Source: Hoplostethus atlanticus (taxonomy: Eukaryota; Chordata; Actinopteri; Trachichthyiformes; Trachichthyidae). From it: DNA of 64,000 nt. The translations under genes and the position numbers were made by a program. Position 1 is the first letter of the stretch, and each line of letters opens with the position of its first letter. The DNA is taken from NCBI GenBank assembly GCA_034670405.1, contig JAXDDX010000051.1, positions 835,501 to 899,500 on the forward strand, in the 5' to 3' direction. Below are positions 16,813-54,965 of this stretch, in pieces. The notes beneath the pieces are model-generated. The model worked only from the letters and a program-made list of their open reading frames with translations, ran no database searches and was not told where the DNA came from.

Positions 16813-16930
16813 CTGTTCTGCTGCTTCTGACTCAGGTACTTCTTCTTGATGCTCTGTAGCTTGTTGGCCAGCCTTTCGTTCTCATTCTTGTGCTCTGTAG
16901 TCTCCAAGATGTTCAGCTCTGCCGTTAACG
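16813..16930 (-). pseudogene. cfap58: cfap58 relic exon, SELNMYE...KKKYLAQK segment
   Basis: It reads ALTAELNILETTEHKNENER and LANKLQSIKKKYLSQKQQN, matching CFAP58 VLSSELNMYEVQSKEYKYEV and EKLTNELQNLKKKYLAQKRK. It is the only relic with no stop or frameshift, although it appears two codons shorter than the human segment. The donor is good (ACAG before GTGAGA). The last exon (PGFTGGGF tail in human) was not found to its left. Confidence 0.9.
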
Positions 16931-18809
16931 CTTGCAGAAAGAAAGAAATGTCAGTTTATCAAAGAAAAAGTGCAGAGAGGTGAACAGTTCATGGTTTCCA
17001 TGCATGTGAAAACATTTGTATACTTGCATTCTGAATATCTATGCTTTATTCTCATTATGCTATAATATTATTGATTTGTTTCTTGAATTTCGCTGAGGGG
17101 GTAATTAGTATCAGTTGTCCTTTTGGCTTCAATTTGATGACGCACTTGGTTGTCCGTGAACAGTTGAGTGGACTTTCAGGCATATAGTGCTGTTATTATT
17201 TTTAAGTAAATCTGTATTGTTATGATAATACCAATATAAATGTACATATTGTTCTGCTGAACTGGCATCAATGGCATTAGCAGTAAATGCAGTATAGCTG
17301 ATGGTTTGCTAAACTGATTGTTTTGTTCCTTTTATTTTACAGAACATTGTTAAGATATTTGTTAAGAAAACAAATATACTATTACTACCACTGTTACTAT
17401 TACTACCATTGTTACTATTACTACCACTGTTACTACCACTACTCATAATAATCTTAACGATTATTATGATTATGATTATTTGTATGATTGTTATGAAACC
17501 AATCTAGGAGGCTCATGTCTTATTCACCACCATGAACCTTGTCCCCTAATGTAAATTGATTCTCATTGTCTTTAATTTTTATTGCTAAAACAAGGCAAGC
17601 TGAATGAACAGCTGATTCTTGCTGTTTCTTGTAGATTCTGTTTCTGTTCTTGAGCTTAATTTTCACTTTTGGGTTACTGCAGGCCTAAATGATGCTTACT
17701 ACATATTAGCATTGCAATTGCCTGGGTGCAGGCTTGTTTAGCTAAACTCTTGCCAACAGTGCCTGGGGTCCACATTTAATTAAGCCTGGTAATGAATTAT
17801 CAGAGAATTAAGCTCAGAATGGCTCCACCTCGGGGCATTGGCAGGCTTTATATGTCACATGTGTATAAAGTTATGTGCTGTTGACTGCAGATATTCAAGA
17901 GAAACCTATTCTTCACACCTAGTCTAATGTAACGTTCAGCATTTAATGACCGCACCAAGATCACCTACGGCATCACAGAAAGAAAGAAAAATGATCATCA
18001 CGTCTTCATCTTTCCCCCAAAATCCATCCCAAACGTTTTTTAATGGCATCTGAATTAAAAGTTTCTAAAAAGAGGGGGGGAAAAAAAGTAGAGTGAGAGA
18101 CGTACTGGAGGGGGGTATTTTTGAAATCCCAAATGTCAGTTGCTCCGTAGTTCTTTATGGTTGAGCTCTTAATTAGGTGGTGGTGATGGGAGGCTGGGGG
18201 GGGAGGAGTCTAATTATTCATTTAAGTGAACTGTCCCCGAACCCACAACTAGTCTGTGAGGGAGAAATGATTCATGGACGCCCTGAAGAGCCCTTAGTAG
18301 GATGGGTGGGAGAGGCAGGGCCGCTGGACATGGGGAGGGGAGGGCAGAAGCAGAGATACTGGTGGGGGGCGGAAACAGGCACTCTGGGGCAATGGGGAAT
18401 ACTGCTGCCTCAACATGCACCACAGGCCTACATCCACCCCAGCTCCACAGTGCCTTAAGTACCATTTCTGTGCCAGTGGTCAGAGATGCTAGAATGACCA
18501 AAAAAAAAAAAAAAAAGCAAGAGACTTAGAGATAGAAAGGGAGAAGAAGAGGGACGGCGGGAGGGAAGGGGTGAGAGAGAAATGGAGAGGTGAGGGATAA
18601 AAGTAAGTAGAGGAGATGGAAGGAATTTCAAGAAAAAGAATGCATGTGATATTAACATCAACAACAACACATATACAGGGATAAAGAGACGGAAAATGAA
18701 GACAAATAATAGGCTGCGAGAGAAAGATGCTTTGACTGGCGAGGAAAAAATTAAGGAAGGAGGAGGGAATGATAAAACAGAAGAGCGAGAGATGAAAGTC
18801 GCTGAGGAC
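16931..18809. other. former cfap58 intron
   Basis: AT-rich, with a degenerate (TTACTACCACTG)n minisatellite at 17384-17446 and a poly-A run near 18500. No gene was seen. A 152-codon minus-strand frame over 18455-18913 is low-complexity FSLS sequence joined to relic exon 18810-18931 and is not a gene. Confidence 0.45.
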
Positions 18810-18931
18810 CTTGAGCTTTTTGTTCCTCTCTCTGTGATGGTACTCTGGCACTGCTGGAGCTGCTCAGCTGCCTCCGGACCCAGCTGCCACGCCAGAATGT
18901 GCTTCAGCCCCACATACAGTCTCTCCTTCTC
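18810..18931 (-). pseudogene. cfap58: cfap58 relic exon, EKEKLYMELKHVLARQPGPEAAEQL segment
   Basis: It reads EKERLYVGLKHILAWQ, LGPEAAEQLQQCQSTIT and, after a one-base change of frame, ERNKKLK. CFAP58 has EKEKLYMELKHVLARQ, PGPEAAEQLKLYRRTL and DKKQQLK. The GPEAAEQL block is the signature that identified the gene. The 3' edge (AAG before GTCCTC) is a weak donor. Confidence 0.92.
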
Positions 18932-25905: not shown

Positions 25906-26009
25906 CTGCAGCAGTAAGAGCTCTTTGTCCATCAGCTCCTGGGTCTTTGCGATCAGGCATTTCAGTAGTCAATCTTCTGGATCAGCTCGTCTTTGCTGGG
26001 GTCGCTGGC
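25906..26009 (-). pseudogene. cfap58: cfap58 relic exon, ASDPNAYELIQKI...KELLLQ segment
   Basis: It reads ASDPSKDELIQKID and, after one frameshift, LLKCLIAKTQELMDKELLLL followed by Q. CFAP58 has EASDPNAYELIQKIHTLQ and RLISKTEEVVEKELLLQ. The acceptor (cctccacag) and donor (CTGCAG before GTAAAC) are intact. Confidence 0.9.
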
Positions 26010-26365: not shown

Positions 26366-26482
26366 CGCCAGCTTTCTCCAACAAAGAACATCTGTGGTTT
26401 TCCAGCTGTTCCTCCACGGTGTAGCACTATGTCCTGTTTCTGAGCAGCTTCCTCTGTATGTGGAAGAGAGCCCGTCTGCAGC
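26366..26482 (-). pseudogene. cfap58: cfap58 relic exon, FFHMQRELLKERTRC...WRKLE segment
   Basis: It reads CRRALFHIQRKLLRNRT, a TAG at 26427-26429 where the family has arginine, CYTVEEQLEN, then after a frame change TDVLCWRKLAD. CFAP58 has ELRQEFFHMQRELLKERT, CRALEEELEN and NVHRWRKLEAS. The 3' donor has decayed and both edges are approximate. Confidence 0.82.
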
Positions 26483-32640: not shown

Positions 32641-32811
32641 AAAACCTTCTTGTGCCGGAGCCTCTTGATCTCCAGCTTGATCAGGTGGATGTCCTCCACC
32701 CTTGGTCAGGATGGATTGGAGGTTCTTGACCTTCTCATACAGCAGTGTCGTACAAGCACGTCGTTGCGGTACAGCAGCTGTTTTCCCAGAAAGGTCCAGC
32801 TCGCTAATCAC
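32641..32811 (-). pseudogene. cfap58: cfap58 relic exon, VISERD...LRLEIKKLRREK segment
   Basis: Four short blocks in alternating frames read VISELDLSGK, QLLYRNDVLV, LLYEKVKNLQSILTKG and VEDIHLIKLEIKRLRHKK. They match CFAP58 VISERDILGS, QLVRRNDEL, LLYEKIKIQQSVLNKG and LEDMRILRLEIKKLRREK in order, so three frameshifts are inferred. The 3' edge abuts a poly-C tract, and no clear donor remains. Confidence 0.88.
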
Positions 32812-33275: not shown

Positions 33276-34072
33276 TATATACAGGGTACATAGTAGAAGC
33301 CCTTACTCGTTTCTGAAAAGGTTTTTTTTAAACAAATTCACACTGACATCATCGTTTAGCATCTCTCCAGGTACAGAATCTCTAGACCTTCTACTGGAAG
33401 TCAGCCATTTAAGCCCCAAGTGTGGCTCTGCCGCCTTTGTCTGTTTGGCGAGTCAAGAGTCATTACCCTGTTAAATAGTGATTCAGCCCTAAGGAGGCAA
33501 AAAAAAAGAAGAGTCTCATCAACAGAATTATTTTTGGCTCTGTGTGGAAAAGATCACACCCTGATAGAAATGTCTTTGTCCATCCCAGGCCTCAAGGAGG
33601 ACACACACAAGGGAGAGAAGGGATGCCTGCCACGATGACATCAAACAACAAAATCACTGAGCCTATTGGGTCTGTTTGATTGGTGTCAACTGCCACCTCA
33701 CCTGTTGACACTAGCATTCTGCATATCAACTGCTCCTCCCAATGTATCGGGACAGGGGAGCTTGAAAGCTGCATCGCAGACGGCTGCATTTCACTTAGGG
33801 TGGGGTTACTGAGGTCAGTGAAGACTTTAGGCTTCAGTGGGAGAGGCTGGCTCTGTGTTTAATGAGCTTGGAGCAGACCCAGACTTTGGTCTCTTTCATC
33901 CCTGTCGCGGTCAGGGCAGCCAGTTAGCTCACTGAAGCAAGGAAAGACCCCTTTGACAACCCCTTTTCCCCACTCAGTCTCTCATTCTTCACATCTGTCT
34001 CTCTCCGTCTTACTCTCTCCCCGTGTCCCTTTCTCTACCTCTTCTTCTCTACCTCTCTTTCTGTTGCTTCAC

Positions 34073-34211
34073 CTGGTCCAATTGTTTCTTCTGTCGGATC
34101 TGCTCAGCATCAGCTTCGGCTATGATCTTGCTCATTTTGCTCCTGTGCCTTCTGGCTGTCAATGCACTGCTTTGTTTCCTCCGCCTGCTGCTTCATTAGC
34201 TGCAGCTCTCC
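34073..34211 (-). pseudogene. cfap58: cfap58 relic exon, RIIAEADGERLRQKKELDQ segment
   Basis: It reads GELQLMKQQAEETKQCIDSQ then KAQEQ and, after one frameshift, MSKIIAEADAEQIRQKKQL then DQ. This is among the most diagnostic pieces, since CFAP58 has ELQKLRQQALETKHFIEKQE and IIAEADGERLRQKKELDQ. The acceptor (cctgctacag) and donor (CCAG before GTGAAG) are intact. Confidence 0.9.
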
Positions 34212-34427
34212 CTGTAGCAGGACACAGAGAGACAGAGAGGGACAGACACACACATACACACAAACACAGGGCTTACACCGAGTTCTGTTTCTGAAAGATA
34301 TCAGATATGGGACAGAGGTTGCCGAAAGGTTAGAGATGCGGGCTAGTGCCTCTAACGTTTGTTCTTCTTCTTCGCTGAGTCGCACTTCGTTGGCGTGCGA
34401 ATGAGTACATACTTCCGCTTACGCAGA

Positions 34428-34664
34428 GGACGTCAATTGAGTACGTGGTCCTTCAATGTGGCCCAGGACACATTCGCGTACACACTGCTAAAAGAATGTG
34501 GCCATATGCGGCCCAGACCACCTCCGAATGTGGTCTGAGCGGTCGGATCTCAATGCGTCCTCAATGCGTCTTGGGTGCATTCATACCTGTACTTAGAACT
34601 GTCCACTTGTGATCGGATCACCTAAGACGCATGTTAATGCCAGGTGTGAACAGGGCCTGACCGT
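34428..34664. mobile_element. hAT-like MITE fragment
   Basis: The right end, AATGCCAGGTGTGAACAGGG before CCTG, and the internal GTCCACTTGTGATCGGATCA are words of a common fish non-autonomous element ending GGCCCTGTTCACACCTGGCA. The left terminus is not clear, so the copy is probably truncated. Confidence 0.5.
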
Positions 34665-35419
34665 ATGACTGTGAAGCAAGGTGGTGCTGAAATGGAACGA
34701 AAACCATCCTAGGATAAATAAAAGGTTAAAAATGTTTTTTGCGGCATTTTGCTGTTCCAATTTGTCTTACTTTGAAAATGCCTGTAGAAAGCAATATAAG
34801 AAAGTGAAAGAAACTATGAGATAGAAGGAGAGGGAGCAAAGCGAGAGAAAACTCAGGTCATTTTGTTCTTTCTAATAATTCCCAACCCCTGTCCCTTGAT
34901 TCAGCTTAAGGAGATGGTGAGGACAAGGCTGTGGTGAGAGACTGCCATACTTATTCAGTTGAAAGGGCTAAAGAGCTTCATTAGTGCCCAGATCAGGTGT
35001 CCCGTTGGCTGGCTGCACTCCCAGAAGGACCATGGTCCCTGTTGGTGCCCCAACCACTGTGGTGGAGGTGGTGGTTACATTTTCAACAAAATGTAGTCCT
35101 GGACACAAAAGTCCCTTGTACAAATAGAGGTGGCTATCTTTCTCTCATTTCTCTCCCCCGGTAGGCTAAGTACTTTGGGAGTGTCCAGACTAAAGTTAGG
35201 GGCTCCTGGTGAGGTATCAATGAATAAACAGAGGACACATTGCTGTGATGCTGTGCTGAAATGATTATGTGGTCTTCTATGGGTTGAGAAAATTCTACAA
35301 TCCCTTGGGCTCATGAAACCTTCCCGAAACCCATTGGATAAACTCAAAAATGCATGGTGGTCAAGTCTGTTTTCCTTAGTTCCTGCAAAGATGACATTTG
35401 GGCGATTATAAGGTTTTTA

Positions 35420-35762
35420 CCCGATAGTGACCATAGGCAGCGACTACGTGGTGCCCACGGACAAATCATATTGCGGTTAGCGTTTGATGCTTTAAATTTT
35501 GTTGCGCATCTACTGGTGTACAGTACAGTATTTTTCTGCCATCTTTGGGTCAGCGCTGCATCTATACCGTAATTAGACACCCAAGAAAAGTACGGCTCAA
35601 GTGCCTTCTCGCATGTTACCAATCACACGCACATATTCCTGCATGTTTCCACACCCTCGTAGGTTTTGATCGTACCAACGAACAAATTCAGATACGAACA
35701 AAATGATGAATGAGACTGTGTTCGTAGAAACGTTTGTACGAAACGCTGTGAAAGAGGCCCAA
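35420..35762. repeat. unclassified interspersed repeat
   Basis: This has the texture of a fish DNA-element end: TACGAACAAA and GTTTGTACGAAACGCTG near-inverted words, closing with AAAGAGGCCC. No ends or target duplications were defined and there is no coding capacity. Confidence 0.3.
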
Positions 35763-35864
35763 TCTGTCTGCACTTCCTGCTCAAACTGAAACAACTGAAT
35801 GGGGAACATACATCATCAGTCTGGAAGGGAACAGACCTCCAAACATCTCCTCTCAGAACTTAAG

Positions 35865-35992
35865 CACTGCCAACCCACCTGACTTGCATGTGAACTGTGG
35901 GAGGAAACCCACCCACAGAACATGCAAACATGCACACACCTTCTTGCTGTGAGGCGACAGTACTGTAACCACTGTGCCACCGTGCCACCCCT
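35865..35992 (-). repeat. SINE head with L2-type body
   Basis: On the minus strand it runs GGGGTGGCACGGTGGCACAG, GTTACAGTACTGTCGCCTCA, CAGCAAGAAGG and then GTTTCCTCCCACAGTTC, the usual order of a fish SINE/LINE unit. It is internally deleted and diverged. Confidence 0.65.
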
Positions 35993-37936
35993 TCAACAAT
36001 TAATAAACGGAAAATACATTTCACACAGCATTAATGAGAATTTCAGACATTTGATGCGTTTGTATTGATTGCAAAATCAGTTCAAAGCGGAACAGAGACA
36101 ATTCTGTATCATATTTTTTTTCCCTACTTTGTCATACAGGTTACCTACTGAGAAGAGGATATCAAAATAACAAGACTGACTACAAATAGAAGACAGATGA
36201 GAGAGTCATACATGTAAGACACATTATAGCTGTATACATGAAAGTCATATATGAATAAAACAGCCTTAGAATCCCATGAATACTGAACAGTAGTCAATCT
36301 CACACATAAACTATTTCTTCCACTACAAGATCACACATTTACAGTCAGACATAAATTAAGTTTCTGGTTTGTTGTGGTGAAGAGAAATGAAACACAAGTG
36401 GCAGGGTGACACATGCATGCTGAGAGGGCTCCAAGGTCATGCGATTCAGTGGCTAATATCACAGGAAACCTGCGTGGGGCAATGCTCACTGTGGAATAAT
36501 TGAGTGGGTACAGCAGTGAAGTGTTTGGAGACAACTACAGCCTCCATGCCATTCTGAGGGAAACATGCTGATGGTGATGCTTTTTGACAGGAGGAAAAGT
36601 AGCACGCTGGAAATTCAACAGAGACAGAAAATAGGGGGGAAGCAGGATAGGGAAGAGAAGATGATATGACAGGGTTTTTTTCCCTTTTCGTCGGGTGTGT
36701 AAGGTTGAGGCAGAATTTGTTACCATCTAGAGAAAAAACTATTGACTTTCTGTCATAGGACTAGTACAAGGATAATTGTTAAATGAAGAGTAAAATTCGA
36801 GAGGTAGGAGCAGGGGCTGACACCTGACAAATTGGTGAGGAGAACTTAAGAAGATGGAAATCATGTTTCAATGAGTGTCAATGACCTTTTAAAGACACAA
36901 AGGGTCATACATTAAATACATTGTCATTTACATGCACGCCTATATTGCTGTTACTTCTTGTGTTTTAACTCCGCAAACACATTTGTTTGCAATGTCATCT
37001 TTTTCCCAGATAGATGTAAAATCAATACTGTAAAAGCACTGCTTTACTCTTTTTGAAAACATCCAACAAGAAAGCTAATCCGTAGGCCACAAAACTCCTC
37101 CATGCTGATCAGCTTTCATGATAAGCCTTTTCTTTTATTCAGCATCCCCTACATTTTCTCACCACTATCTTCCCTCCCTCCACTTCAAAACCAACCCAGT
37201 CAACCACATCTACACCAATCTCAGCTGGAGAAACAGAAAATACAGGGAAATGCCAAGAGAGGATAACTGCAAGTTGAAGGCAGAAACAGTGCAATACCAT
37301 GGAGCTGTACCCACTGCTATGTGGGAAGGCAATTTAATTGATCAAAATTTAAAACTGCCTTGCTCGTTTTGAAATGTAAAAAAAAAAAAAAGATGGACCA
37401 TTACATGAATTCAGCATGGAGAACATACTGTATTGATGGAGCCCAATTCATAATGATTGTTCAGAACAGAGGAGCTATTCTGAGCATTGCCGTCACTATT
37501 TAAGGGTATCTTTTTTAAACCAAGAGAGGGAGGAGAGAGAGTGAGAGATGAATGTATAGATGAAGACTAAAAGCTAAATGTGTCAGTTGAAATGAAAGCC
37601 TCCAGTTAGCTTGGTCCGTATATAAAGGTCAGAGGAATTAGAAGCAAGACAGAAAATGATGGGGTAATGACAGGGTGGGATAGCAGAAAAGTCATGACAG
37701 TGACATGAGGGGAAATTGATGCTCAGGGTAGTCAGAGACTTTGACTGTTGAAGGAAAAGGTAAAGCCGTAGCATCAAAAATTAGATAAACAAATGAATAA
37801 TGAAAAAAGCAAAACAGTTGGTATGGAAATGTCTTGCTTTTATCATCAGGCTGTTCAATTTTAGTGTACTGTTCTTTTGGTCTTTTCTGCATTATATCCA
37901 AAAACATGAAGATATGATGCTGCTGTGATGCTGCTA

Positions 37937-38047
37937 TTCTCCATTTATATGCTACCACGAGGTGAAATCATCCGTAAGTTTTATCACTACGCCGACAATA
38001 CTCAACTTTATGTGCTTCAATCAATCACTCCCAATTCCAAAACGTAG
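37937..38047 (+). mobile_element. LINE reverse-transcriptase fragment
   Basis: It encodes FSIYMLPRGEIIRKFYHYAD then NTQLYVLQSITPNSKT and a stop. This is the motif-C region of a CR1/L2-clade reverse transcriptase (normally YADDTQLY). The second catalytic aspartate reads as asparagine and the frame ends early, so the copy is dead. Confidence 0.75.
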
Positions 38048-38127
38048 AGGCATGCCTATGCGAAATCAAACACTGGACGTTGCTGGTTATGTTGGTCCAA
38101 TTATGTTGGTTATCGGACCAGCTAGAC

Positions 38128-38190
38128 ATACTGTACTGTGCAAAAGTCTTAGGCACCATAGATGTTTTTACATAAATTTGGTCTTAGATG
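38128..38190. mobile_element. DNA-element terminus (GTGCAAAAGTCTTAGGCACC)
   Basis: TACTGTGCAAAAGTCTTAGG followed by CACCATAGATG is the recurrent terminal sequence of a short mariner-like fish element. Only one end is seen. Confidence 0.4.
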
Positions 38191-38499
38191 TTAATTTTTT
38201 TGTTTTCTGCATTAGTGTTTTACATTACCGCTATTTATAGTACCATTTTTGATATTTAGAAAAAAAATTCAGATGTTGTCAAACCATATATACACTGCCA
38301 CACGCCCTTGGATCACAGGACGCTGGCTACCTATCTATCCCAGCAGTCAAAAAGAAAACCTTTTCTTACTGCTGCAATCAGAGAGACAAGCTCTATTGAA
38401 ACCAAGTTTATTTATTATTATTTGGAAAGTAAGGTTAGACCAGTTAGCTTGTACTAGCTCAGATTGCTGCCGATGGTCTTCATGCTGGTCATATCTGTC

Positions 38500-38830
38500 T
38501 GTGTGAGAGAGAGTATGTGAATGAGTCTGTCTGCGGTGTGTATGGGTGTGTCCCCTATCTGTTTCCAGGCTGTGGCTGGGCAAATGTTGGTGTCCTTGTG
38601 GTCCCCCATGATCAGGATGGTCCACCCAAGTGTTTATTCTGTATATTTTGCTTATGTTCCATTTTTCCTGCCCATCCTTGGCACCTATGGCATGCCTGAC
38701 CACCCTGGTTGGGGGATCCCTCTCTGAGTAGCCCCTCCCAAGGTTTCTTCCTAAAATGTTTCTTTCCTAAAAGTTTTTACTTGTCCTCTGCAAGAGTCCA
38801 AGTTTGGGGGGAGCCGTGTGCTGTCATTTG
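38500..38830 (+). repeat. LINE 3' region copy 1
   Basis: It runs through TGAGTCTGTCTGCGGTGTGT, ATGGGTGTGTC, and GGGGGATCCCTCTCTGAGTA followed by CCCAAGGTTTCTTCC, the usual 3' end of a fish CR1/L2-like LINE. A diverged second copy starts at 41006. Confidence 0.55.
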
Positions 38831-38857
38831 TTTCCATAATGTGGGCAATGTCAGTAT

Positions 38858-39692
38858 TACAGGGGATGGACAAAATACCTGAAACACCTAGCAATATATG
38901 AATTTCAAGTCCTGATGAGGAATATGACCACCCTTTGCCTTCTAAACAGCCACCTTCCTCTTTGGAATGCTGTCATACAAGTCCTGAATTGTGTGTAAAA
39001 GAAATGTACTTTGGCAACTGTGTTCCTTCTCCAAAAGAACAGTGTTGGCACCACAGGGTCTACCTGGTTCTGTAAAATGGCTTCATATTACTTGCCCGTT
39101 ATATGGCCATGCAAGAGAATCATCGGATCATCGGAACAGACAAAGTTGGTAAAACACATCCATTGACTTTCTCCAAACATGAACCCACCCGGATGTAGAA
39201 AATAGTGTGTGTGGGAAGGCAAGGTCCAGGGACCACCACAAAGCCAAACACAGGGAGGGAGAAGACATCAGGGAGACAACAACCCACAGCTGCTTCCACT
39301 CTAAAACCCCTTGATGCTATCTAGCACTTGACATGCAGATTTATAACTGGTGACAATTATTATTACTCATCATTTTGTCTTATATGTATTCAGGTACTGT
39401 GGCCGAAAAACTCCAGTGATCTCGAGTGCTTTTTGATTCATTAAATATCTTACCATGATTGAATATAATTGATTTTGATAAAGATTTTGTATATTTCTTA
39501 TATTTATTTTATTGGTGTATTTTGCTATACTATTATTTATTTTTCTATTTTTCTCTTTTTGCTATGTAACTCGGCTCCACTGAAAATGAATTGGGCTTCT
39601 GTGTGAATGCTCACCCTGGATTATGGCACAGAGGATTATAACATCAATAAAATAAACACGGTGATTCCGTTATTTTGTCCAAACCCTGTGTA
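38858..39692. mobile_element. Tc1-like transposon relic
   Basis: The left end ACAGGGGATGGACAAAATAC and the right end TATTTTGTCCAAACCCTGT are inverted and bounded by TA (38858-38859 and 39691-39692). The left third keeps Tc1-type sequence. The rest is replaced by other material, including a 59-base word repeated exactly at 43214. No transposase frame survives. Confidence 0.75.
39588..39646. repeat. 59-bp exact repeat, copy 1
   Basis: Starts GAATTGGGCTTCTGTGTGAA and ends GATTATAACATCA. An identical copy lies 3.6 kb away at 43214-43272, in both cases leading into a CCTGTGTATT end of a Tc1-like element. Confidence 0.85.
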
Positions 39693-41005
39693 TTCAGGTA
39701 ATGACATTGTTAATTATTCTGTACAATTAAATTATACATCACTCAAATTCACTGGACTGCAAGTAAAAATCTCACATGTCCTATGACTGAGAGGCCCATT
39801 TAAATGTGTTTTTGAGACTCAAATGAAGGACGCTCCATTTGAATCTTTTTGTACTACTGCCTCTAATGCTTTTTAGATTTGCGTAGGATTCAATTATCAA
39901 AGCAATATCGGATTTAGTGTCATATCACATTACAACTGAAATCTTGATTGGATTAGCAGAAGAGAGGCCTACAGTATGAGCTCAAGATAAGTATTAGAAA
40001 TATAATTTCTCAATTCAATGCACACACTTTCTTATGGCTCATCACGAAGTAGCATACAAAAGTAATCCTCCCTCTGTGCTCACTGTCCTCCTGAATCTGA
40101 CAAATTAAATGACTCTTTCTTCCCAGCGCGCCTTTTGAACTTGTCATCCAAATGTCCAATTGTGATCAGAGACAGGAAGCACATATTTCTCCCTGGCTAG
40201 CAGCAAGTGTTCTTCTCTTCATGCTTCCTGCACACTCATTAATTCATAAATCACGGTAGGGTACGGTTGGAGGGTGGGCAGTAAAGGTAAGGCTGCTGGC
40301 TGGTGGGAGAAGGGCCCCCCCACGCCTGCAATGTTCACGTCCTCTCCTCCTGAGAGTCTGGCAGATAACAGTACAGCAGGAAGCCCCCATACTAATCAGT
40401 GGCCGAGGGCACCAGCAGCAGTTCCTGGGGGTGAGTGATAGCCATCGGCTTCCCGGGGATCAAGGCATGACGGACATGAGTAAGTGCCGCTGGCCCCTGA
40501 AGCATGCTAGGTTAAACCTGATGGGTGGACTTGACTCGAGTGCTGCTGAAGAGTTACGATCATACAGAAGAGAGTAGAGGGGCATGGGAGAGATTGTGTG
40601 GCATAGTCCAGGGGCCAGCCGATTTTCAATCCCACATAAGGTCAGACCTTATTGCTAGGTAAGATTGAGGGTCACAGCCCTTAAGGCTGTTGGGTCTCAA
40701 TCCCCTACCTCAATTATATCATGATCTACTACAGGGGCAAGAGAATGTATGTGAATCCCAAGCTATAATATGTTATTGGATATAATATTTTATTTTTTAG
40801 GCAGTTTTGAATAACAAAATATGAAGTATAAGAAGTCCAACCATACAAGATGATGTGACATTATGAATGATATAAAAAGTTACTTCCTTTTAATTCAAGT
40901 TTGGATGCACTCTGGGCCAAAAGATAACACGCAACAAATAAAAGTGTTTTATCTGTAATTATTTTGTAGCACATGGGGTTGTGGCTCTTTTTTGGTTTTG
41001 TTTAA

Positions 41006-41260
41006 ATGCTTTGGTCCCAGTTTTTTGTTCATTCATGTTGGTGTGTGTCGTTTTGTATGATTGGGAGTAAGAGAATGAGTTTATCTGCTGTGTATGGGTG
41101 TGTCTCCTTTGTCTTTTTATTTCAGGTTGTGGCTGCAGCTGGGCAGTATCGGCATCCTGGGTGGTCCCCGACTCTTCCTCCCTCCTCGCTTTGTGGCACC
41201 TCCGAGGAAAAAACGGGAGTCACAAATCCAATCTGAGGGCAGATTCATGGCACAGATCAC
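41006..41260 (+). repeat. LINE 3' region copy 2
   Basis: Shares GAGAATGAGTTTATCTGCTG, TGTATGGGTGTGTC and a CAGGTTGTGGCTG-type word with the copy at 38500, in the same order. No coding frame was found. Confidence 0.5.
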
Positions 41261-41659
41261 ACCATAGACAGTTCGGAGGCTTGCGTGTGGCTACATCTTT
41301 TAGGGCACTCCCCGGTACAAAACAAACCCGATGCCTATGATCAGAGGGATTATAACTGGCTTTTGATAATTGTAAACGAGGTAAACGAGAAAAACCTGTT
41401 ACCCCTTCACACATCTACAAAACACACAAACCTTTTCTTTTGTGTTTGCTTGGTTCCTCCTGTCCGGTCTATGGCCAGCCCCCCAGTGGTTGAGTCAGCT
41501 AGCCGTGAACATCAGGACTGCTCTCTCCCTGACAACCTTCCGGTGCGCCCCACCAAATCCATCTGTTCAGACCACTGGTGCTGGGCATTCCCCACAATGG
41601 CTTCACCTTCACACAGCCAGGGAACCGGTGGACCCACACACCTTTGGCTGGCTAAAATA

Positions 41660-41692
<33 letters not shown>

Positions 41693-42330
41693 CTCAACAC
41701 CTTCTGTTAGTGCACCTTACTATGACTACAGTTGATACTGTAGTGTGCACATAAGACGGTTCATATTCATGATGCATATTCATGGTGTTTTCCCCCTAAG
41801 GTCTTAGACTGCCATGTGTGAATTTATATACATATATATGTGATACAGCTTGTGTGAAACAGCTGAGCATAAAGAAAGCCAAGACGTTCTAGACAAAAAC
41901 AAGCAGGCCTTTCGTCACCACTGTTCCATGCTCCATCAACAGCAAACGAAAGCGACACAGCTACATCATTCCCTTAGTAAATTCACAAATGCAGGGTACA
42001 GAACATACCCATGCAGTGGCCTTTTCAAATTGAAAACACTGTACTATTCAGAGTCATTGTTACACATGCGTAGACAATACGGCCTAGGTTACAGTTTACA
42101 TTTAAATTGAGCAAAACCACACTGAAAATCCTCTGAAAAATGTCCAGCTTAAAGGAAGCCAATCTTAAATGTAGAAATGCATGTGCATAGGGCTACTTAG
42201 GCCGAGTACATTTCTAGCTGTGGTGCCTGCAATTTTGCCTGCTGCGTCAGCTTATGTGGCCCTTGACAGTATATGAGATACTGTACCCTATATCAAAAGG
42301 TAGAGAAGTTAGAGAGGCTAGTTAACTTGT

Positions 42331-43060
42331 ATGTTAGGAGTCCCACACTGTCTTAGTAATGTAGCTCTGTATGGGAAAGCGATCTTAGAACTACCCATAT
42401 CTAGCCTAACAGAGGAATTTAAAAGTGCAAAGGTAAGATTAGAGATGACACTGACGGAGTCAAAAGATCTAACAGTTAGTAGCACAGCGCCTACGGTGTC
42501 AGCAGGGCTAAAATGGAATCCAAAAGAAGCAGGCAGTTAGTGCTCAGACATAGGGATATCGTAAGTGCAGGTGCAACTAGGCTGAGGAAGATTAGGGCTA
42601 GGCTCAGGGCAACCCTTATGGAGTAAGGCAACTCCATCAGGGAAAAGAGAAATGGTTGTGGACCAAATTAAGCAGCAGGAAGCAAGGTGTGCTAAAGGCT
42701 GTCTCTCAGGCGAAACAAGGTCGGTGGATGAATTGGGAAAGTGTAGAGAGGAAGAAACTTGGCTGAAGGGAGCTGTGTGGTATGGAGGAAAACTGACCTA
42801 GATTCATTACAGGTGCAACCTATGATGTACCACCATCTCCCAAAAATGTCAGTCAATAGGCAGGGGAGGACCCTTCCTGTCTCTTATGTTCAGACATAGC
42901 TACTCATGGACATACTTTCTTAGGATACAAAATCGGTCTGTCCCAGGGACGATACACCTGGCGACATAACCAAGTGCAGAGGTCTAGCAGCAGGTCTCAA
43001 TAGCAGCAGCTATTGAGAGCAAGCGGGTAGAAATCAACTCATCAGCTGACAGGAAGGAGG
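42331..43060 (+). mobile_element. decayed LINE ORF, C-terminal region
   Basis: The frame at 42331-42540 reads LPISSLTEEFKSAKVRL, like the LPVSSLVEEFKVAKTRL block of a fish LINE polyprotein. Further on, DPSCLLCSDIATHGHTFLGY and KIGLSQGRYTWRHNQV follow, matching its C-terminal zinc motif (CPLC...H) and the LSQGRYRWRHDQVL end. Several stops lie between, so the element is dead. The clade is not certain. Confidence 0.65.
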
Positions 43061-43213
43061 TTAGTACAATTGGGAGAAAAGACTACGAGGAAAGAGTCGC
43101 TGGGCAGCCATGTTGTAGGCCATATGTTGGCTTGTTGTTGGTAGATTTATGACGGCGTAGCCTGATGACCACATAGCCATTTGTGGGTTAGTGCTTCATT
43201 CTTTCTGACATCT

Positions 43214-43272
43214 GAATTGGGCTTCTGTGTGAATGCTCACCCTGGATTATGGCACAGAGGATTATAACATCA
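43214..43272. repeat. 59-bp exact repeat, copy 2
   Basis: Identical to 39588-39646 and followed by AATCCTGTGTATT, a shortened version of the Tc1-like end that follows the first copy. It is probably a fragment of a sister element. Confidence 0.85.
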
Positions 43273-44233
43273 AATCCTGTGTATTGATAAATGCTAGATG
43301 AATTTATTTGAGCTGAATTAGGTAAACTAGGTTCTGGCAATGCACAGTAAAAGAGTGCATAAAAAAGTGAGATCATTTTCAAGACATAATGAGGGCCAGA
43401 CTGAACGGCCTTTAGAAATAGATTAGAAGGCACACCAATTTATGTGATCACTTGAGAATAGGGCTGCAATTAACCACTATTTTGTTATTTATTGATATGC
43501 CCTAACAAAGAAACACAAGAGATAGGGAGGTTTTCCCATGTGTGTTTTTTTGGGGGGGGGGTCTAACAAAAGATTGTTTGTTAGACAGACAGACAGATAG
43601 ATAGATACACAGATAAGGTAAGTGGGCCAAATGAACAAGCACAGAGCCCAGCAGAGATACACATTACAATTACATTACATTACAATTACCAATACACATG
43701 CAGAAGGAGGAGAAAGGGGTGGGATGGGCTGTGCAGGGGTCAGGCCAGGGTACACGGGGACTGTCATTAAATAACTACAAGCTCTGGTCAAAAAGCTGTG
43801 AGAAAATGTGACAAGGTTAATTTGCCTGTCAGAGGAGGACACTGTAAGAGAAAAAGTGGGAGATGAGCCTCAGCCTTCTTTTCAAACTATCAAAGAAAAG
43901 GATATAAAAAGATGATGAAACAAAGAAGGGAATTGAAAAAAATCAAAACCCTTCCTGTGATGTGTCATTTTGTGACATGAAAGCCTCACAGTCATACTTT
44001 TCCCGTTTTCCAGTAACTGTTGGTGCGGCACATTGATATTGGCAGCCCACATCGGGCTTGGCAGGCGGAATTGGACTTGAACAGCATTTTAATGGGTATC
44101 AAATGGAACAAGCTCAAACAAACATTAGGTTCTGAGTTAATGAGTTTGGTTGCACGTTACAAATGACCTGCACAAGGCTGTCCCACTCCTCTCTTTATAG
44201 CGCTTCTCTGGCGTATACCACAAGTTCACCTTG

Positions 44234-44404: not shown

Positions 44405-44478
44405 GAACATCAGTTGTGGATAGCAGCACACCCTACATGAACCTCAATTATTTTTTTTGCTGTAGGTACCTGTCGTAC

Positions 44479-44584
44479 CTGACAGATTCAAACATGTGAT
44501 GCTGCTGCTTGAGCTTGCGCTCTGCCTCAGTGACCTCCTTCTTGCACTCGAAGATCTCTGTTTCTCATCCATGTGTTGCTGCAC
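44479..44584 (-). pseudogene. cfap58: cfap58 relic exon, ETQIFDYRKK...LYEAVR segment
   Basis: It opens as VQQHMDE, then after loss of one base in an A run continues TEIFECKKEVTEAERK and LKQQHHMFESVR. CFAP58 has NMEDIKVRETQIFDYRKKIA and LKQQQNLYEAVR here. The acceptor (catccacag) and donor (GTCAG before GTACGA) are present. The exons just before it in the protein were not found in the 6 kb to its right. Confidence 0.87.
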
Positions 44585-47121
44585 CTGTGGATGGGGGGGG
44601 TGGGAGTTGGGGGGAAGGGGGGTGAGAGCGAGGGGATCTTAGTTTGGCGCCTCATTAGAGGCAGGGGAAGGCTTACATAACCAAGGGGATGATAGCTGTT
44701 TTAGACACTGCCTGTCTGATGCTAACAAGCATTTGAAATTCAGATTTCTCTGCTTCTCGTCTCTACTGAAAGCCTGGCATTTTGACAAAGCTGGAGGGGG
44801 AAATGCAGTGTACAATTGAACAGAGAGGACAACTGTGTTACACAAATATAAACCTTTCAGCTCTCATTGCCGTTGGATGGCTAGAGATATGCGTTAAAGG
44901 CTCTGTTAACAGCATAGGCCAATTTCAATTTCTATGAGATCGATACAGCTTTCACATATCCTCCCTTTTTTTTTCCACCTCCTCTCTTTTCAAAGAAGCC
45001 ACAAAAGCAAGATAAGAAATGTCAAATTACATCCCCAAATCCTTTCCAAATCAAATTAGATTTCTGGGTTGTATTATACTGCTCCCAGTGCATGGGTCTG
45101 CTAATCCAATCATGGAGTGCCAGGGCTCAGTTCACCCCAGTCCCTGGTAACATGCACAGAATGAAATAATTGTATTCACGAGGGATTTATGAATGAAGCA
45201 ATCGTAGTAAGTAACATGCCTTACGCAACAATAGCCTGAGAAGGGGCTGATTGATTGAGATCGAACCTACAATGCAATTACTCGTGACTAAGCTGTGCAT
45301 TTAAGTTAAGGCCACTTCTCTAAAAGTGACTACCGCCGTGCATGCTATAGGTGAGATTAAAAAAAAGTCAATGTCAAAGTCAATTTTCTAGGGCTCAGCT
45401 CAAGCACGCACTATCTACTGCCAAATTGAATAATGGCATATCATCTCATTCAAAGGAGATCGATCTTCTTTATTAAATAGTTGTTATTGTTTAGCAGGAG
45501 AAAAGGGTTGAACAGCCGTTTGCTATCACTTCACAGGTGACTGCTTCAAGCTTTAAAGAAATAAGAATGAATGCTGCTGGAATGTGTCTGATTAGAACGG
45601 AAACACAGGATTAAAATGAATGACTGCACAGCAACGCTCAAGTAATATTTTATTGTTTTAACCATGTTGACTTCCAGAGCTTGACATTGATTTATTGAGC
45701 CCTCTTTTGTGCACCGGCAGCAGATTTCTAAGCAAAAAGGAAATATTCATGAACGTTAAAGTGTTTCAGTGATTCAAGGCGCTCGTCAGAGGTAAAGACA
45801 CATTCGCAAAACCATTACTGGGAGGCTGGCTCCAAAATCTTGCGCGACACTTCATGACAGCATTCATTGTGGCAGCTTGTGGTTGTGGGAGATGTTACTA
45901 TTCACCACCCCTCAGTAAGCCATTGCTTTAATGGCCAACATGGGAATTTTGTCAGTCGGTTTAAAAGTTCATATTGAAATGTAGCATCGGAATTTTTACT
46001 TGAGACAAAAGTGACAGCTTAAAACCAACCACACGTTTGCACTGTAATGCATAATGACACAGGCACAGACAGCTGAATATGGAGAAACGGCGACAGAGAG
46101 CGAGCAAAAATCAAAGTGAAAGTTTGGCAGGAAGCTGAATAGAACATCAACATTTGATAGCAATCCTGGTGAACTTGTGCAAAAACTACAGGACTGAAAT
46201 GAAATTCTTTACAAAGGAGATGGAGAGGCTGGGATGTGTGCTGTATAAGGCCTGACTGAATTAAACTGGGTTAAAAATAGGCACACTTTGAGCTTCTTTT
46301 TTTTTTTTTTTACTTGAAAGGTACAAGGAATAGCACTAGCATAGCTTTTGAAACAGTAACTGGTGGTGTTTTTCCTTACCTGTGGCTTTTGCTATTGTGC
46401 TACAATAAAGTGCAGCACAATGGCACTGGAGAAAACTAGATAATAAGGTGCAGTATAACACTCGTCCTAATATACTCATTAATCAGTGTACTACTTTACA
46501 CAGCCAATTAGAGACTGCAGAACAGACCTGCGTCATGAGAGATTAATGTTCATGGCTTAGGGTGGTAATGCTGCCTGCTACTACAGTGCACTGCTATGGC
46601 ACAGTACAAAGTCTTTCTCCGGGCTATTGTTTTGATGAGAGCCTTTTAGAAAGTGCTTGCCAGTCTTTGAGCAGGTGATTGCGGAACACCGAGACACACA
46701 ATACATGATGTCTTCCAATGGGTGGAAGGAAAATTACTTGACATGGATGCATATAGCTAGTGTACCCTGCAATCTTCCTCTGTTATTACCACCCCAGATT
46801 GCTGGTATTCCTTACTCTCAATATAATCATTGTCCATCATTTGGATCTATTTGATAGAAAGGGATGTTGAAATAGTGAGATGAATGTGGCAAGCTGAGGA
46901 TAACCGTCTGTGTTGGGACTCATAATCTAGACAAAGTGGCAGTATATAGCTAGGTGTCATACATGATAAACTGCTGTATTTAAATGGGGTTGCCTCCTCC
47001 TTCATTCTTTCTGCCTCATCAACAACACGTGAAAATGCTGTATGTTGAATGTCCTACATCTTACAATTTGTGGAGCATGTCATTAGACCATATGCCGCGG
47101 AGCAGCTTGAATTCATCTCTG

Positions 47122-47126
47122 TGTGT

Positions 47127-47174
<48 letters not shown>
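47122..47174. repeat. (GT)n microsatellite
   Basis: About 25 GT units with one GGG interruption. Confidence 0.95.
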
Positions 47175-47175
<1 letters not shown>

Positions 47176-47689
47176 AAAAACAATGAACAGAAAGTTAATA
47201 ATACTCATAAACCATTCCTAAGTCTTATTCCACACAGACATTGGTGTTCCATATATACAGGCCAAGGTTGATATTCCCACCCTGGGATTAATGTAAGAAA
47301 TTCCATGATTTCCATAGACACAGGAGTATAACTGCTAATATCATCTTATTAAATAAAAATTAATGTGAATAACGAGTAAATACACATTCTGACAAACATT
47401 TAAATTCCCTGATATTCAGTTAAAAGTTCCTTTTAACCAAATTGCATGATGACTTTTTCTGTCTACAATACAACTCTTAAAATTCTACTCACACAACCCA
47501 AGGAAACCCAATGGTCTGAAATAGCTAATTTCTCAGGCTTTTCCAGGATTAGGTAATCACAGGGAAGTATTTGAAAGAGAATTCAACATACTCTTTTGTG
47601 ATTGATTGACAAACAGGCATACATACATGCAAAGTCAGGGAGACACACACACATGTTTGAGAAGAAACCCCAAATGTCACACAAGGACA

Positions 47690-48145
47690 AATTCTGATTC
47701 ATCAACCGGTGAGTTTGTTTGAATTAATACAGAAATGGAGCTTTAGCGTAAGTTCAATCAGGAAGGGTAATTCTGTCAGCTGGAGCCAAACACGCCACCA
47801 GCTCCGCATCGCTCTCCAGAAACCAATCACTAACCATTTCCCTCTATTTGTACCCCCTCAGCTGCTTCCGTGTTTCTGTCATTTCAGCTGCCTAAACCGC
47901 ACCAGTCTGACGCACCACCTCCTCCCCCCGCCACCAGCAGCATCACGGCTCCATCAGATATCCAGAAGGGTCAGATCTTCAGCCCGGGGGGGGTGGGGGG
48001 GGGGTTCTCCTGTCTCCTACCTGCCCCCAGGGAGCTTCACCCTATCGCTGGATACCTCTTGGAGTCTACGCCAAACCTATGCACACGCACGTTCTCTCAT
48101 GTTGTTAATAAATTCCTTTACTCGTAATCCTAGCCTCTTGTGATT
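47690..48145 (+). repeat. unclassified interspersed repeat, copy 1
   Basis: Shares with 50035-50415 an opening (GAGCTTTAGCGTAAGTTCAA here, GAGCTTAGTGTAAATTCAAT there), a CACCA/CCGCC-rich middle, a TTAATAAATTCC-like polyadenylation stretch and an ATCCTAGCCTC / ATCTAGCCTC close. It may be the terminal repeat of an LTR- or DIRS-type element; no coding region was found. A fossil either way. Confidence 0.5.
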
Positions 48146-50034
48146 GAAATCAGGTTCATTGAATCTGCACTTCTCCCCAGTGCAGCATTCCTTGCTCTCG
48201 CTCTCACGTCCATGCCACAGTGGCTCACACAAGCCTGTGTCTCTTAGCATGCCAGCGTGTAACGCAGTCCTGCCTGAGCCAATTAAATATGAATGGGCAC
48301 TCATCTCCTTATACACAACAACAATACAATATTTAGCACATCATCATCGGTGTCAGGAGTACTCTCCTTTTTCCTTCCATCTCACATTGAGAGCCTTGAA
48401 GAGCAATTAGGACCCTTTTTCAGGAAGAAGAGAAGCGAGTGGGACTTTAAAGAGCCATGTTTTAGGAGCAGTGATCCTCTAGATCAAAGAGTATGCCTCT
48501 TGTAGCCTCTTATGAATCCTTTTTGGGCTTTGTGTCTTGTCAATAAAAAAAAAAGTAGGCCAAGTGTGGCAGCTGTAAGTGACTATGTTCCAGCATATGT
48601 GAGAGCATAGTCCATAATAGTTGAATACGGTGTACAGGAGAAGTTTTTTACTGCATGCTTGCTGAACTACTGCTGCACCTTTGCTCTCTCCCCAAGAGGA
48701 ATTCATTGGAAAAAAAGAAATGCTCTATTTTCAGGCGTCGAAATCACCTGGGACCTAGTTGGTTAAGAGACACTGGAATTTTGTTTTACAATATACTATT
48801 TTGGTTCCACCGTCTAAAAATTTAAGAAAGAATTGTCTGCAGCACTAAATAAGGATAGATAAAACATAAATACACAATGGTCACTACAATGACTAACACT
48901 GTACAGTAGGTTCTCCGTGTCACGCAGCTGGATGTTATGAGATTTGACCTCATGGTGTTGGTCACATAACAACATGACTGGTACGTCTTGTTGGAGTGTC
49001 GCAGTGGCACCACAGACCTGGAGGTGGGTGACCTTTAAACCAAAACGAGGAGGCGTCTTCATAAGGGCTCTGACAGGAACAGGTGAATGGAAGTGACGGG
49101 CTTATATATATGTCACAAGGGGAAGAAAGTCAGGGGGGAACACGTATTATGGTCAAACCCAATTTTTTTTTTGACTAAGTGGATGTGGGGCATGGAGTCT
49201 GAAGGAAATATTACACCGGTGAGAAGAAGCCTATTATTTTCATGTCTGAAGCAAAAAGATAGGAGTATACATAACAGAAAGAAACACTCAGGGAGAGGGG
49301 GATTGGGGGGGGGGGGGTGCATGAGTGGCACAAAAAGACAAACCTGGGTAAAAACAGAGCAACCTAAACAGAGACAGGCAGATAAGATAAACATGGAGAG
49401 AAAGGTGAGACAGAGAGAAAGTGAGAGACATCAACACAGAGCGAGGTCACGACTCAGAGAGCAACAGTGAGACAGTGAACATGGCTAAGTGCATACGGTG
49501 TCAGAAAGCATGAGCATCTGGGTTGTCATAAGAAATGGGCATTCCGTGTACTCCCCTCGGTCGCCATGTGGAGATTGAGACTGTTGACCTCCCTGTCAGC
49601 TCCTGGGCTCCCATCCATCACCCTGGGGACACTCATCCATCACAACATCAGACGGCCCCACCTACAGTACTCAGGTGAGGACAGACTCCAACCATTGAGA
49701 CAATTGGTTGCTCAGCCTTAGCCCTGCGCTCTCGTTAAAGGATGAGACCTGTTTTTTTATTCATGTGAAACTTAGTTGGTTCTTTGGCCTCTGAACAGCC
49801 TAAGGACTGAAATGTGTCTTTTGCTTCTCTATTAATAGCTGCACAACAGTGTCGTCGTTAAATGAAGGTAGATTAAAGGTGATTTGAACAAGAATTAAGA
49901 AACATCTCCCCGTTGCCTCTATCTACGCCCATGAATTTCTATTTGGGGGAACCAAAAAGTGCATTCCAGTTTCACTTTGTTCTTCAAACTACTCCAGGGC
50001 TAAAGAATCCTCAGGGTCATGAACAAAAGCAGTT

Positions 50035-50677: not shown

Positions 50678-50820
50678 CTTTCTCCGGACTTGTGATCTGG
50701 GTCTCAGCACCTCCTTCTCCACCTCCACATCTGATCCTCCATCTGGTGGAACGTCTTCCGGATGGCTTCTCTCATCTTCATTATCTCCTGGCACATCTGA
50801 TTCACCTCCTATTCTTTAAT
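50678..50820 (-). pseudogene. cfap58: cfap58 relic exon, EEEVHQM...EDQKAEVE segment
   Basis: It reads IKE, a TAG at 50809-50811 where the family has glutamate, then EVNQMCQEIMKMREAIRK and TFHQMEDQ, and after a frameshift DVEVEKEVLRPRSQVRRK. It matches CFAP58 KEEEVHQMRLDIGKLNKIRE and HHTEDQKAEVEQHKE. Both splice sites are intact: acceptor cctttgtcag and donor AAAG before GTAAGG. Confidence 0.86.
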
Positions 50821-51408
50821 CTGACAAAGGGGGGGGGGTGTCAAGGGAAGCATTAAAGAGGAGGAGAGCGAGGGGAGAGAACACCTCCACACACACCTTT
50901 CTCAAGAGGATTTGCTGGAAGACACGTGTTTCAAAGTGTTTTGGGTAAAAATAGTATTTTTTCTTTCTGTGTTTTGCCACCCTCCCTCCCTTCTTCCCCC
51001 ATCTCTCTCTCTCTCTCTGTGTCTGAAATTACTATATCCACTATACAGGAAATGACAGCAAATCTGCAAGAGCATGAAATCAGGATGCATATCATGTGTC
51101 AGCACAACAAAAGCAGGCTGTGTTGGGATACTCCCCTGGTTGGCCAAAAGACATTGGGATTCTTGGTTATATGATTTTTCAACGGTTGATGCATCTGAAT
51201 TAAATGTAAAAGGTTAATAGGATTTTTTTCTTGTACAGTTCACTTCAAAAGACGAGAGATGATGCCCCTGTCTCCCGGTAGTGAAATACAAGTGTTCCAA
51301 CAGATGTACTTGTTTCCTTCTTGTTCCAGTACAAGATGAACTGTGTCTAAGCACTGCCCCCTTGTGGTTGCATATGACAGGATCCGTCTCCTATGACAAG
51401 GAGTTATA

Positions 51409-52636: not shown

Positions 52637-52795
52637 CTTCAGGTGATTTGCCTTCTGCTGATTTTTCCAGGGAAAGCTCTTCACTGGCCAATGAGAGCTG
52701 CTTGCTTGGTGTTCCTCACTCGCACTGCCACTATTCAGCTCTGTTTGTTCTGACAGTCTTTCAAGATCAGTCAAAGCCAGGGCAAGGTTGGGGGG
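52637..52795 (-). pseudogene. cfap58: cfap58 relic exon, RNAKLQQ...NQQKALELK segment
   Basis: Pieces in shifting frames read ALTDLERL, RVRNTK, KQLSLASEELSLE and NQQKANHLK, matching CFAP58 AAKELEQF, MRNAKLQ, EQHSLVCEQLSQE and NQQKALELK. At least two frameshifts are present. The donor (CTGAAG before GTACAC) is fair. No AG acceptor is left at the expected 5' edge, so the right-hand boundary is approximate. Confidence 0.78.
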
Positions 52796-53408: not shown

Positions 53409-53585
53409 CTTGAGCGCCTTCAGCTGCTGCTCCAGTCGCTGCTGTTCCTCTTTAGCCCTTTGGCCCTGCAGGGTCAGGGTTTTGATGTTCTCCATCCTGG
53501 CCTCCATGTCGGTGCAGCTGCTTCACCCCCTTCTCCAGCTTCTCCAGGAGATCTCGTTCTGAAGGACCTGGAGTTCCTGCTGGAG
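53409..53585 (-). pseudogene. cfap58: cfap58 relic exon, KLEKELKQ...LEQQLK segment
   Basis: Three frames are needed: LQQELQVLQNEIS, then LEKLEKGVKQL, then TDMEARMENIKTL and AKEEQQRLEQQLKALK. They match CFAP58 FQQEIQQRQNEAS, KLEKELKQIQADMDSRQTEI and KEELQKLEQQLKEQK. The second change looks like the loss of one base near CAGCTGCACCGAC; the first looks like a deletion. The acceptor (aaatacag) is good and the donor (GTTAAC) is weak. Confidence 0.87.
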
Positions 53586-54058
53586 CTGTATTTGGAAACA
53601 CCAGACAGCAAAAGGTTGGCAAAACGCCCAGAGTTGGTGTAGCCGTTGCGCCCCCACTTCTGGAGCTGTATACGCCACTGATGGCCGATAGAATTCTGCC
53701 AGGACTTTCTACCTTTTTTCACTGTACTCTCTCCAAAGGAAAGTATGCTTTATCTATGCCTGTGTTTAGCAGTCACTCATGTACAAGGTAACATTTCCCT
53801 TATTGATTTCCAGAAAGCGAGTGTCTCTATCTTCTAGCTACATCTTTTACAGGGTGTAAAAGCAAAGCAAAATGTAGTTGGAAAATCTTCTAAAAAAATG
53901 TCTAATTCTCTACATGTCTAATATGCCATAACACAATCTGGCATACAGTTGTCAGGGTTATGGCAAGCTTGCCAAAATTAAAAGGTTCATGAGACGCTCT
54001 GCCTACAGCTAAGGGAAGAGCCTTGGGTCATAGACACTCCTTCAGTCTCTACCACATT

Positions 54059-54061
<3 letters not shown>

Positions 54062-54119
<58 letters not shown>
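54062..54119. repeat. (CT)n microsatellite abutting relic exon
   Basis: About 29 CT units directly touching the coding match of the relic exon at 54120-54223. Read on the minus strand it extends the frame as Arg-Glu repeats. Confidence 0.97.
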
Positions 54120-54121
<2 letters not shown>

Positions 54122-54223
54122 GACTCCTGCTGAGTCCTGCTAAGTTCTCTCTCAGCCTCCACCAGTGTAAGCAGCTGATCCTTCCCCTTGGTCAGCCTGG
54201 ACGTCTTAAGTATATCATTTACA
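54120..54223 (-). pseudogene. cfap58: cfap58 relic exon invaded by (GA)n
   Basis: It reads VNDILKTSRLTKGKDQLL then TLVEAERELSRTQQES, matching CFAP58 around DLLRFKEEVTKERDQLL. It has a good acceptor (tttttcag). The coding match then runs without a break into a (GA)n tract (54062-54119 on the plus strand as CT), and neither the expected continuation (QETERSKEEAEHAISQ) nor a donor can be seen. Either the repeat grew inside the exon or a deletion joined the exon to it. Confidence 0.8.
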
Positions 54224-54360
54224 CTGAAAAATACATCACAGTTGATCCCTTTACTTCTATATTAAGTGCAGAAGAGCGATGGAAAATATGATTAAATGCC
54301 GGCTTAAGCTTTAAGTGATGCAGCTATCTTTGTAGAGGACAGAAGGCAACAATGACTCAC

Positions 54361-54478
54361 CTGTGCTCTTGGCCCATGGACAAGCCAGACAGTTAGGTTT
54401 GCGATTCAGAATGGTCTTTTTACTCTTTACATCTTTATCAGGAGCTGCATCACCCATTTCCCAAGCCTTTTCTAGCTT
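54361..54478 (-). pseudogene. cfap58: cfap58 relic exon, KAW...LSMGQE segment
   Basis: The frame gives KLEKAWEMGDAAPDKDVKSK then KTILNRKP, matching the CFAP58 segment EIEKAWKMVDSAYDKE. About ten codons (the NLTKLVEQG part) are missing with a frame change, after which LSGLSMGQEH can be read in another frame, as in the human GSGLSMDQH. It has a strong donor, CACAG before GTGAGT, and a pyrimidine-rich acceptor. Confidence 0.87.
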
Positions 54479-54716
54479 CTAAGTGTAGAGGAGAGGGAGA
54501 TTTGAACAAAGTATTTGATGGCAGAGTGAAAGCTAGGAGCACAAACATCACCTAATGGCACCAAAAACACCATATCTCTGTACCAAACACCAAGTAAATG
54601 GCATAACTTTGTGTTTCTACCCCTTTATCACAAAAACACAATCATGAAGTGTAATATCACCCTCATCTTCCAGCTTTGTAAATATGCATAGCCTCTAATG
54701 TTCTGGATACATATAC

Positions 54717-54965
54717 TTTCTTCAGATAAAGATTTTTTGTCAGATGGTCCCGGGACAGCTTCAGTACAGTAGCAGCTTTGGTGAAGTTGGACACTATCTC
54801 TGCATTCAGCTGACAGTATTTGGACATCCTCTCACTCTTGTGGGACTTCCTCAGTGCATTGGTGAGATTCTCTTATCCCACACAGAAATTGTCCATGCTC
54901 TTTGAGGACCACGCGGAATTCCTTCCCTAAAAACTCAAAAGTATCCTTTTCCTCCTTCCTGGTTC
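54717..54965 (-). pseudogene. cfap58: cfap58 relic exon, N-terminal region
   Basis: It reads KEEKDTFEFLGKEFRVVL, then after a small deletion and frame change SMDNF, then NALRKSHKSERMSKY and CQLNAEIVSNFTKAATVLKL. This matches roughly residues 10-100 of CFAP58 (human words: FEEMERDFQGVL, SLEKF, LNAEIV, ATALKLS). An in-frame TAA at 54873-54875 stands where the family has tyrosine. The acceptor (tttccag before 54965) and donor (GTATAT) look intact. The first coding exon with the ATG was not found upstream. Confidence 0.88.

Follow-up and report, generated by a model that had tools for sequence, protein, structure and literature searches.

A cfap58 gene that lies in ruins in a fish genome raises the question of whether the lineage has lost this flagellar gene or whether a working copy stands elsewhere and, if so, how the two copies are related. 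The window analysed here is the whole 64,000-nucleotide stretch of Hoplostethus atlanticus DNA at C51:835501-899500, from an assembly of 632.8 Mb in 1161 contigs (contigs are abbreviated as C51, C15 and C123). An earlier note, made from the letters alone, had read thirteen decayed exons in it as an unprocessed dead cfap58, and had proposed either a second copy (for example after genome duplication) or loss of the gene from the lineage, with a speculative link to flagellum-less sperm. The dead unprocessed gene and the second copy have held up; the lineage loss, the sperm link and the example of genome duplication have not.

Relics and lesions of cfap58 in the window

The 17 exons of an intact cfap58 on C15, described below, were aligned to the window, with 20 shuffles per exon as control. 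Minus-strand relics were found for 13 of the 17 exons, in collinear order from 54965 down to 16813, the same number and limits as had been read from the letters. The relics score 94-255, and shuffles of the same exon reach at most 20-27. Frame-shifting indels occur in 12 of the 13, in keeping with the twelve exons previously described as carrying stops or frame changes; they come to 29 in total, a count that varies with the alignment settings, and only E16 is free of them. The splice borders, described before as mostly intact, retain an AG acceptor in 11 of 13 relics and a GT donor in 10 of 13. The in-frame stops already named (a TAA ending at 54873 and TAGs ending at 50809 and 26427) are present base for base in the assembled sequence, and there are no others among 583 aligned whole codons. 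With 12 of 13 relics frame-shifted and 4 of 17 exons not found, the window copy has no complete open frame. Homology to the C15 copy reaches beyond the outermost relics, upstream to about 55669, which takes in the promoter region and the start codon, and downstream in intron 16 to 7573, with a short match further on. The dead copy thus spans 48.4 kb (7290-55669) versus 11.6 kb in the living copy. The features are listed in Table 1.

Exons E7, E8, E10 and E17 score no better against the window than their own shuffles. Each was searched for again in its own interval with other settings, and no relic was accepted; for E8 and E10 these settings gave long weak alignments, made without a shuffle control, which were not taken as relics. 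The last exon, E17, was found neither in the window nor in the 10 kb beyond it. When eight pieces of the gene were compared with Pfam, two matched CFAP58_CC (PF21771, cut-off 27 bits), one at 44451-44564 with 29.7 bits and one at 34052-34192 with 24.2 bits, which falls below the cut-off; the remaining six gave nothing above Pfam cut-offs. The best relic, compared with PDB at E values up to 10, matched three chains, all of them CFAP58.

The introns stand at the parental positions, in that the 13 relics are split at the same borders as the C15 exons and the introns partly align. The relics, their lesions and the kept introns together establish that the window holds a real cfap58 that is dead and unprocessed, as the earlier note had stated. 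A retrocopy is ruled out because the introns are common to both copies.

A nest of multi-copy repeats lies about 300 bases past the last cfap58 match. One family has pieces at 5100-5856 and 6771-6984; between them lie pieces of two other families, at 5896-6216 (found in at least 29 other places) and at 6217-6771. Two open reading frames in the nest, 5121-5600 and 6256-6564, were tested for transposable element identity and gave nothing above Pfam cut-offs.

Table 1. Features of the dead cfap58 and its surroundings, in window positions
Feature	Position	Strand	Remarks
TCTCGCGAGA palindrome upstream of start codon	55620..55629	-	unchanged in dead and living copy; two CpGs
Probable first coding exon relic, ATG plus one codon, then GT	55480..55485	-	aligned to ATG GAG/GTAAGT, C15:5295099; presumed splicing
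E1 relic	54717..54965	-	two frame shifts; TAA 54875-54873
E2 relic	54361..54478	-	two frame shifts
E3 relic	54110..54223	-	five frame shifts; GA repeat in place of 3' end
E4 relic	53409..53585	-	two frame shifts
E5 relic	52637..52767	-	five frame shifts; acceptor TG
E6 relic	50678..50820	-	two frame shifts; TAG 50811-50809; donor GT vs GC in living copy
Site of deleted E7	49109..49117	-	9 bases vs 138 in living copy
E8 not found	45127..48917	-	3791 bases vs 514 in living copy
E9 relic	44437..44584	-	three frame shifts; Pfam CFAP58_CC above cut-off
E10 not found	34229..43763	-	9535 bases vs 312 in living copy
E11 relic	34073..34211	-	one frame shift; Pfam CFAP58_CC below cut-off
E12 relic	32656..32811	-	three frame shifts; 3' end unalignable
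E13 relic	26368..26475	-	two frame shifts; TAG 26429-26427; without GT donor
E14 relic	25906..26009	-	one frame shift
E15 relic	18810..18931	-	one frame shift
E16 relic	16813..16931	-	one in-frame deletion only; acceptor AA
Intron 16 homology to living copy	7573..8582	-	two blocks; 26-base match further on at 7290-7315
Nested multi-copy repeats near missing last exon	5100..6984	+	

The living copy on C15 and the age of the pair

An intact cfap58 lies at C15:5283537-5295099, with 17 exons and 865 codons, no premature stop and a stop codon at its end. AG precedes all 17 exons, the donors are GT in 15 of 16 cases and GC after E6, and a probable first exon of two codons (ATG GAG, then GT) lies 590 bases upstream. 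The encoded protein scores 1020 bits (9fqr_It) and 995 bits against CFAP58 chains in PDB, and it is identical to mammalian CFAP58 at 523 of 816 compared residues. Searching the whole genome with this protein, with 52 of 76 candidates scored, gave 22 matches, of which 17 are on C15 (one per exon) and 5 on C51, all inside the window; no third cfap58, for example on C123, is among the matches listed for the scored candidates. Five of the 17 C15 matches show a stop where the match overruns the exon end, and the spliced frame has none. The suggestion that the fish may keep another copy is thus borne out, loss of cfap58 from the lineage is contradicted by the intact gene, and the idea of flagellum-less sperm, for which mormyrids had been the example, was set aside once that gene had been found. 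The C15 copy is presumably expressed and doing the gene's work. At its E6 donor the living copy has GC in a weak context (C15:5291145), where the dead copy has kept GT (window 50678); in the living copy, an in-frame GT precedes this donor by 12 bases, and splicing there may leave the exon four codons shorter.

Dead and living exons differ by 14, 15 and 19% at first, second and third codon positions, respectively. For the pair, dS is 0.30 (bootstrap 0.23-0.37), dN is 0.15 and dN/dS is 0.51 (0.40-0.70). Outside the exons the two copies are 81.7% identical over 4070 alignable bases of introns and promoter region, a figure that errs on the high side, since parts that cannot be aligned do not enter it. 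Could the window gene nevertheless be intact in the animal, and its decay the product of an assembly error or a mis-joined allele? This is almost certainly not so: the introns diverge by some 18%, 12 of the 13 relics carry frame-shifting indels (29 in total) and four further exons were not found, which is more than sequencing error or allelic difference would produce.

The SorCS genes of C51 and C123, over 113 and 112 codons only and with the pairs taken as ohnologs, served as a yardstick of age within the same genome. One pair has a dS of 1.22 (bootstrap 0.76-2.86) and the other is saturated; this second pair was matched by position, and its C51 member is nearer to the cross partner on one of two exons (70 versus 65% of residues). 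Short stretches of the SorCS pairs compared by blastn match at exons only, with no intron match. Since its introns can be aligned and its dS is 0.30, the cfap58 pair is, by this measure and in relation to the SorCS pairs only, younger than the SorCS block duplication. This result goes against the genome duplication that had been offered as an example of how a second copy might arise. Two SorCS pairs are present in the genome, on C51 and C123, and the two cfap58 copies could be imagined as ohnologs from the teleost genome duplication of which one was shifted by rearrangement; however, with a dS of 0.30 (0.23-0.37) and introns 81.7% identical, against 1.22 (0.76-2.86) or saturation for SorCS, such an origin is highly improbable, and only gene conversion across the whole gene could save it.

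The window copy also bears the mark of relaxed constraint. Over 573 codons with mammalian CFAP58 as outgroup, 92 are changed in the window copy only (stops counted) and 31 in the C15 copy only; 45 of the remainder differ in all three, 125 in the mammal only, and 280 are the same. The dN/dS of 0.51 points in the same direction as these lineage-specific changes. If a working cfap58 is assumed to have a dN/dS of 0.05-0.20, the dead copy has evolved without constraint for 0.78-0.97 of the time since the pair arose by the point estimate and for 0.50-0.74 by the lower bootstrap bound, so that it would have been free of constraint for at least half of the time since copying.

Neighbourhoods of the two copies

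The Sortilin-Vps10 domain occurs in genes at C51:595-597k (+) and 686-692k (-) and in a second pair on C123, and no gene on C15 is among the 22 matches listed. For one exon from each of these four genes, the solved structure that matches best is SorCS2, and sortilin-related receptor either follows far behind or is not among the matches listed for those exons; the C51 and C123 genes are therefore regarded as SorCS-type. The dead cfap58 (-) is followed about 150 kb downstream by a SorCS-type gene (-) and beyond it by another (+). At human 10q25, CFAP58 adjoins SORCS3 on the same strand, and SORCS1 lies beyond them, convergent with SORCS3; the arrangement on C51 is the same as this human order, and a convergent pair of this kind would presumably be SORCS1-SORCS3. 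The other SorCS pair, on C123, is accompanied by SFR1 and by a Mab-21_C gene, perhaps ITPRIP, and no cfap58 match on C123 is among those listed. Neither SFR1 (Mei5) nor Mab-21_C (ITPRIP-type) gave a match on C51, and neither gave one on C15. The living cfap58 on C15 lies about 9 kb from a gene with the Pfam FEZ domain, which we take to be FEZ1 (number 1); frames further off, named by eye, are presumably MSANTD2- and IGSF9B-like. In turkey, the interval described in PMC8470100 holds COL17A1, SFR1, ITPRIP, CFAP58 and SORCS3 together. The lack of SFR1 and Mab-21_C matches on C51 counts against it as the ancestral address, to which the SorCS pair and its orientation point, in this one fish genome. 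Given the SorCS arrangement on C51 and the lack of any Sortilin-Vps10, SFR1 or Mab-21_C match on C15, C51 is most likely the old address and C15 the new one. The dead copy would thus stand at the old address, with the SorCS pair nearby in the expected order, and the working copy, with its intact frame, at the new address beside FEZ1.

The SorCS blocks at C51:595-692k and C123:835-1074k resemble partners from a genome duplication with reciprocal gene loss, SFR1 and the Mab-21_C gene having been kept on C123 and cfap58 on C51 until its death.

The direction of copying could also be reversed. In that case the original would be the C15 gene, and the window would hold a truncated copy that was already dead when it came to lie near the SorCS genes. 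No last exon was found in the window or in the next 10 kb, which would fit such a partial copy, and a dN/dS of 0.51 is compatible with death at or near birth. However, the copy would have had to land by chance, in the expected orientation, no more than about 150 kb from a SorCS gene and, given that CFAP58 stands beside SORCS3 in the turkey interval (PMC8470100), the gene would earlier have had to move away from there unseen. The nested repeats near the missing exon provide a possible later cause for its loss, and the reverse direction is, on balance, unlikely.

Probable copying and takeover, and comparison with known systems

The DNA shared by the two copies starts about 180 bases upstream of the start codon and reaches the last intron or beyond. 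It includes TCTCGCGAGA, which we take to be a promoter element and which occurs once in 94 kb of C51 and once in 200 kb of C15 (C15:5295213-5295222). Beyond cfap58, these same stretches of C15 and C51 have in common only short, mostly repeat-like matches. When the C15 segment was compared, together with its flanks, with the 200 kb to which it belongs, the single match was a 107-base palindromic repeat (C15:5295985-5296091, 83% self-complementary) about 700 bases upstream of the shared cfap58 segment. The kept element and start region might suggest that the relic is still transcribed from its promoter as a non-coding RNA, perhaps one that regulates the living copy. At 82% likeness it is not unusual for ten bases to be kept by chance (about 0.14 as a simple product), and it is improbable that the relic has such a role.

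Genes are known to relocate. In the present case, a copy of cfap58, promoter included, very probably came to lie elsewhere, after which the original at C51 died. The gene would first have stood beside SORCS3, as in turkey, and an earlier block duplication would have given the genome its two SorCS pairs. Later, the gene would have been copied to C15, next to FEZ1, on a stretch of DNA that included its introns and promoter region; there the TCTCGCGAGA element inside the shared part could have allowed the copy to be expressed at once. The C15 copy would then have taken over from the original, the loss of which would have been free of cost while two working copies existed, and the original would soon after have lost function and decayed through stops, indels, exon deletions and inserts. 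Of this account, the relics in the window, the intact C15 gene, the introns and upstream DNA common to both copies, the age of the pair relative to SorCS and the presence of SorCS genes nearby are shown by the sequence, and we infer from there on: that C51 is the ancestral address, that the living copy is expressed and does the gene's work, and that copying came first and death second.

The window gene is similar to other unprocessed (duplicated) pseudogenes in its introns, collinear exons, stops and frame shifts, but here it is apparently the parental locus, and not the daughter, that has died. Both the relics and the living copy match the CFAP58 family (Pfam PF21771; PDB 8j07, 9fqr, 8glv), although the window copy cannot encode the protein. 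A further parallel is JYalpha of Drosophila, which, in the account given in PMC8261240, is a male-fertility gene that lies on different chromosomes across lineages, with one address without a working copy; according to the same account, hybrids can become sterile when male-fertility genes move. Similarly, cfap58 has one address without a working copy. Unlike JYalpha, cfap58 has a dead copy that can still be read, it belongs to a fish, and there is no known cross or hybrid defect. No title on a cfap58 relocation was among the titles listed in the literature searches, and a prior report is possible; the search for flagellar pseudogenes with relocation in teleosts gave no paper.

What appeared to be the loss of a fertility gene becomes an apparent move. 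Synteny-based screens of fish genomes for flagellar gene loss would wrongly score cfap58 as lost here. As the relic is readable, the move could be dated via both addresses in related fishes. A bolder and very unlikely reading is that cfap58 moved in this manner in a lineage whose relatives have kept to the old address or resolved the pair in the other way; crosses between such lineages would then give some offspring without a working cfap58, among them sterile males, and this gene would be a vertebrate counterpart of JYalpha.
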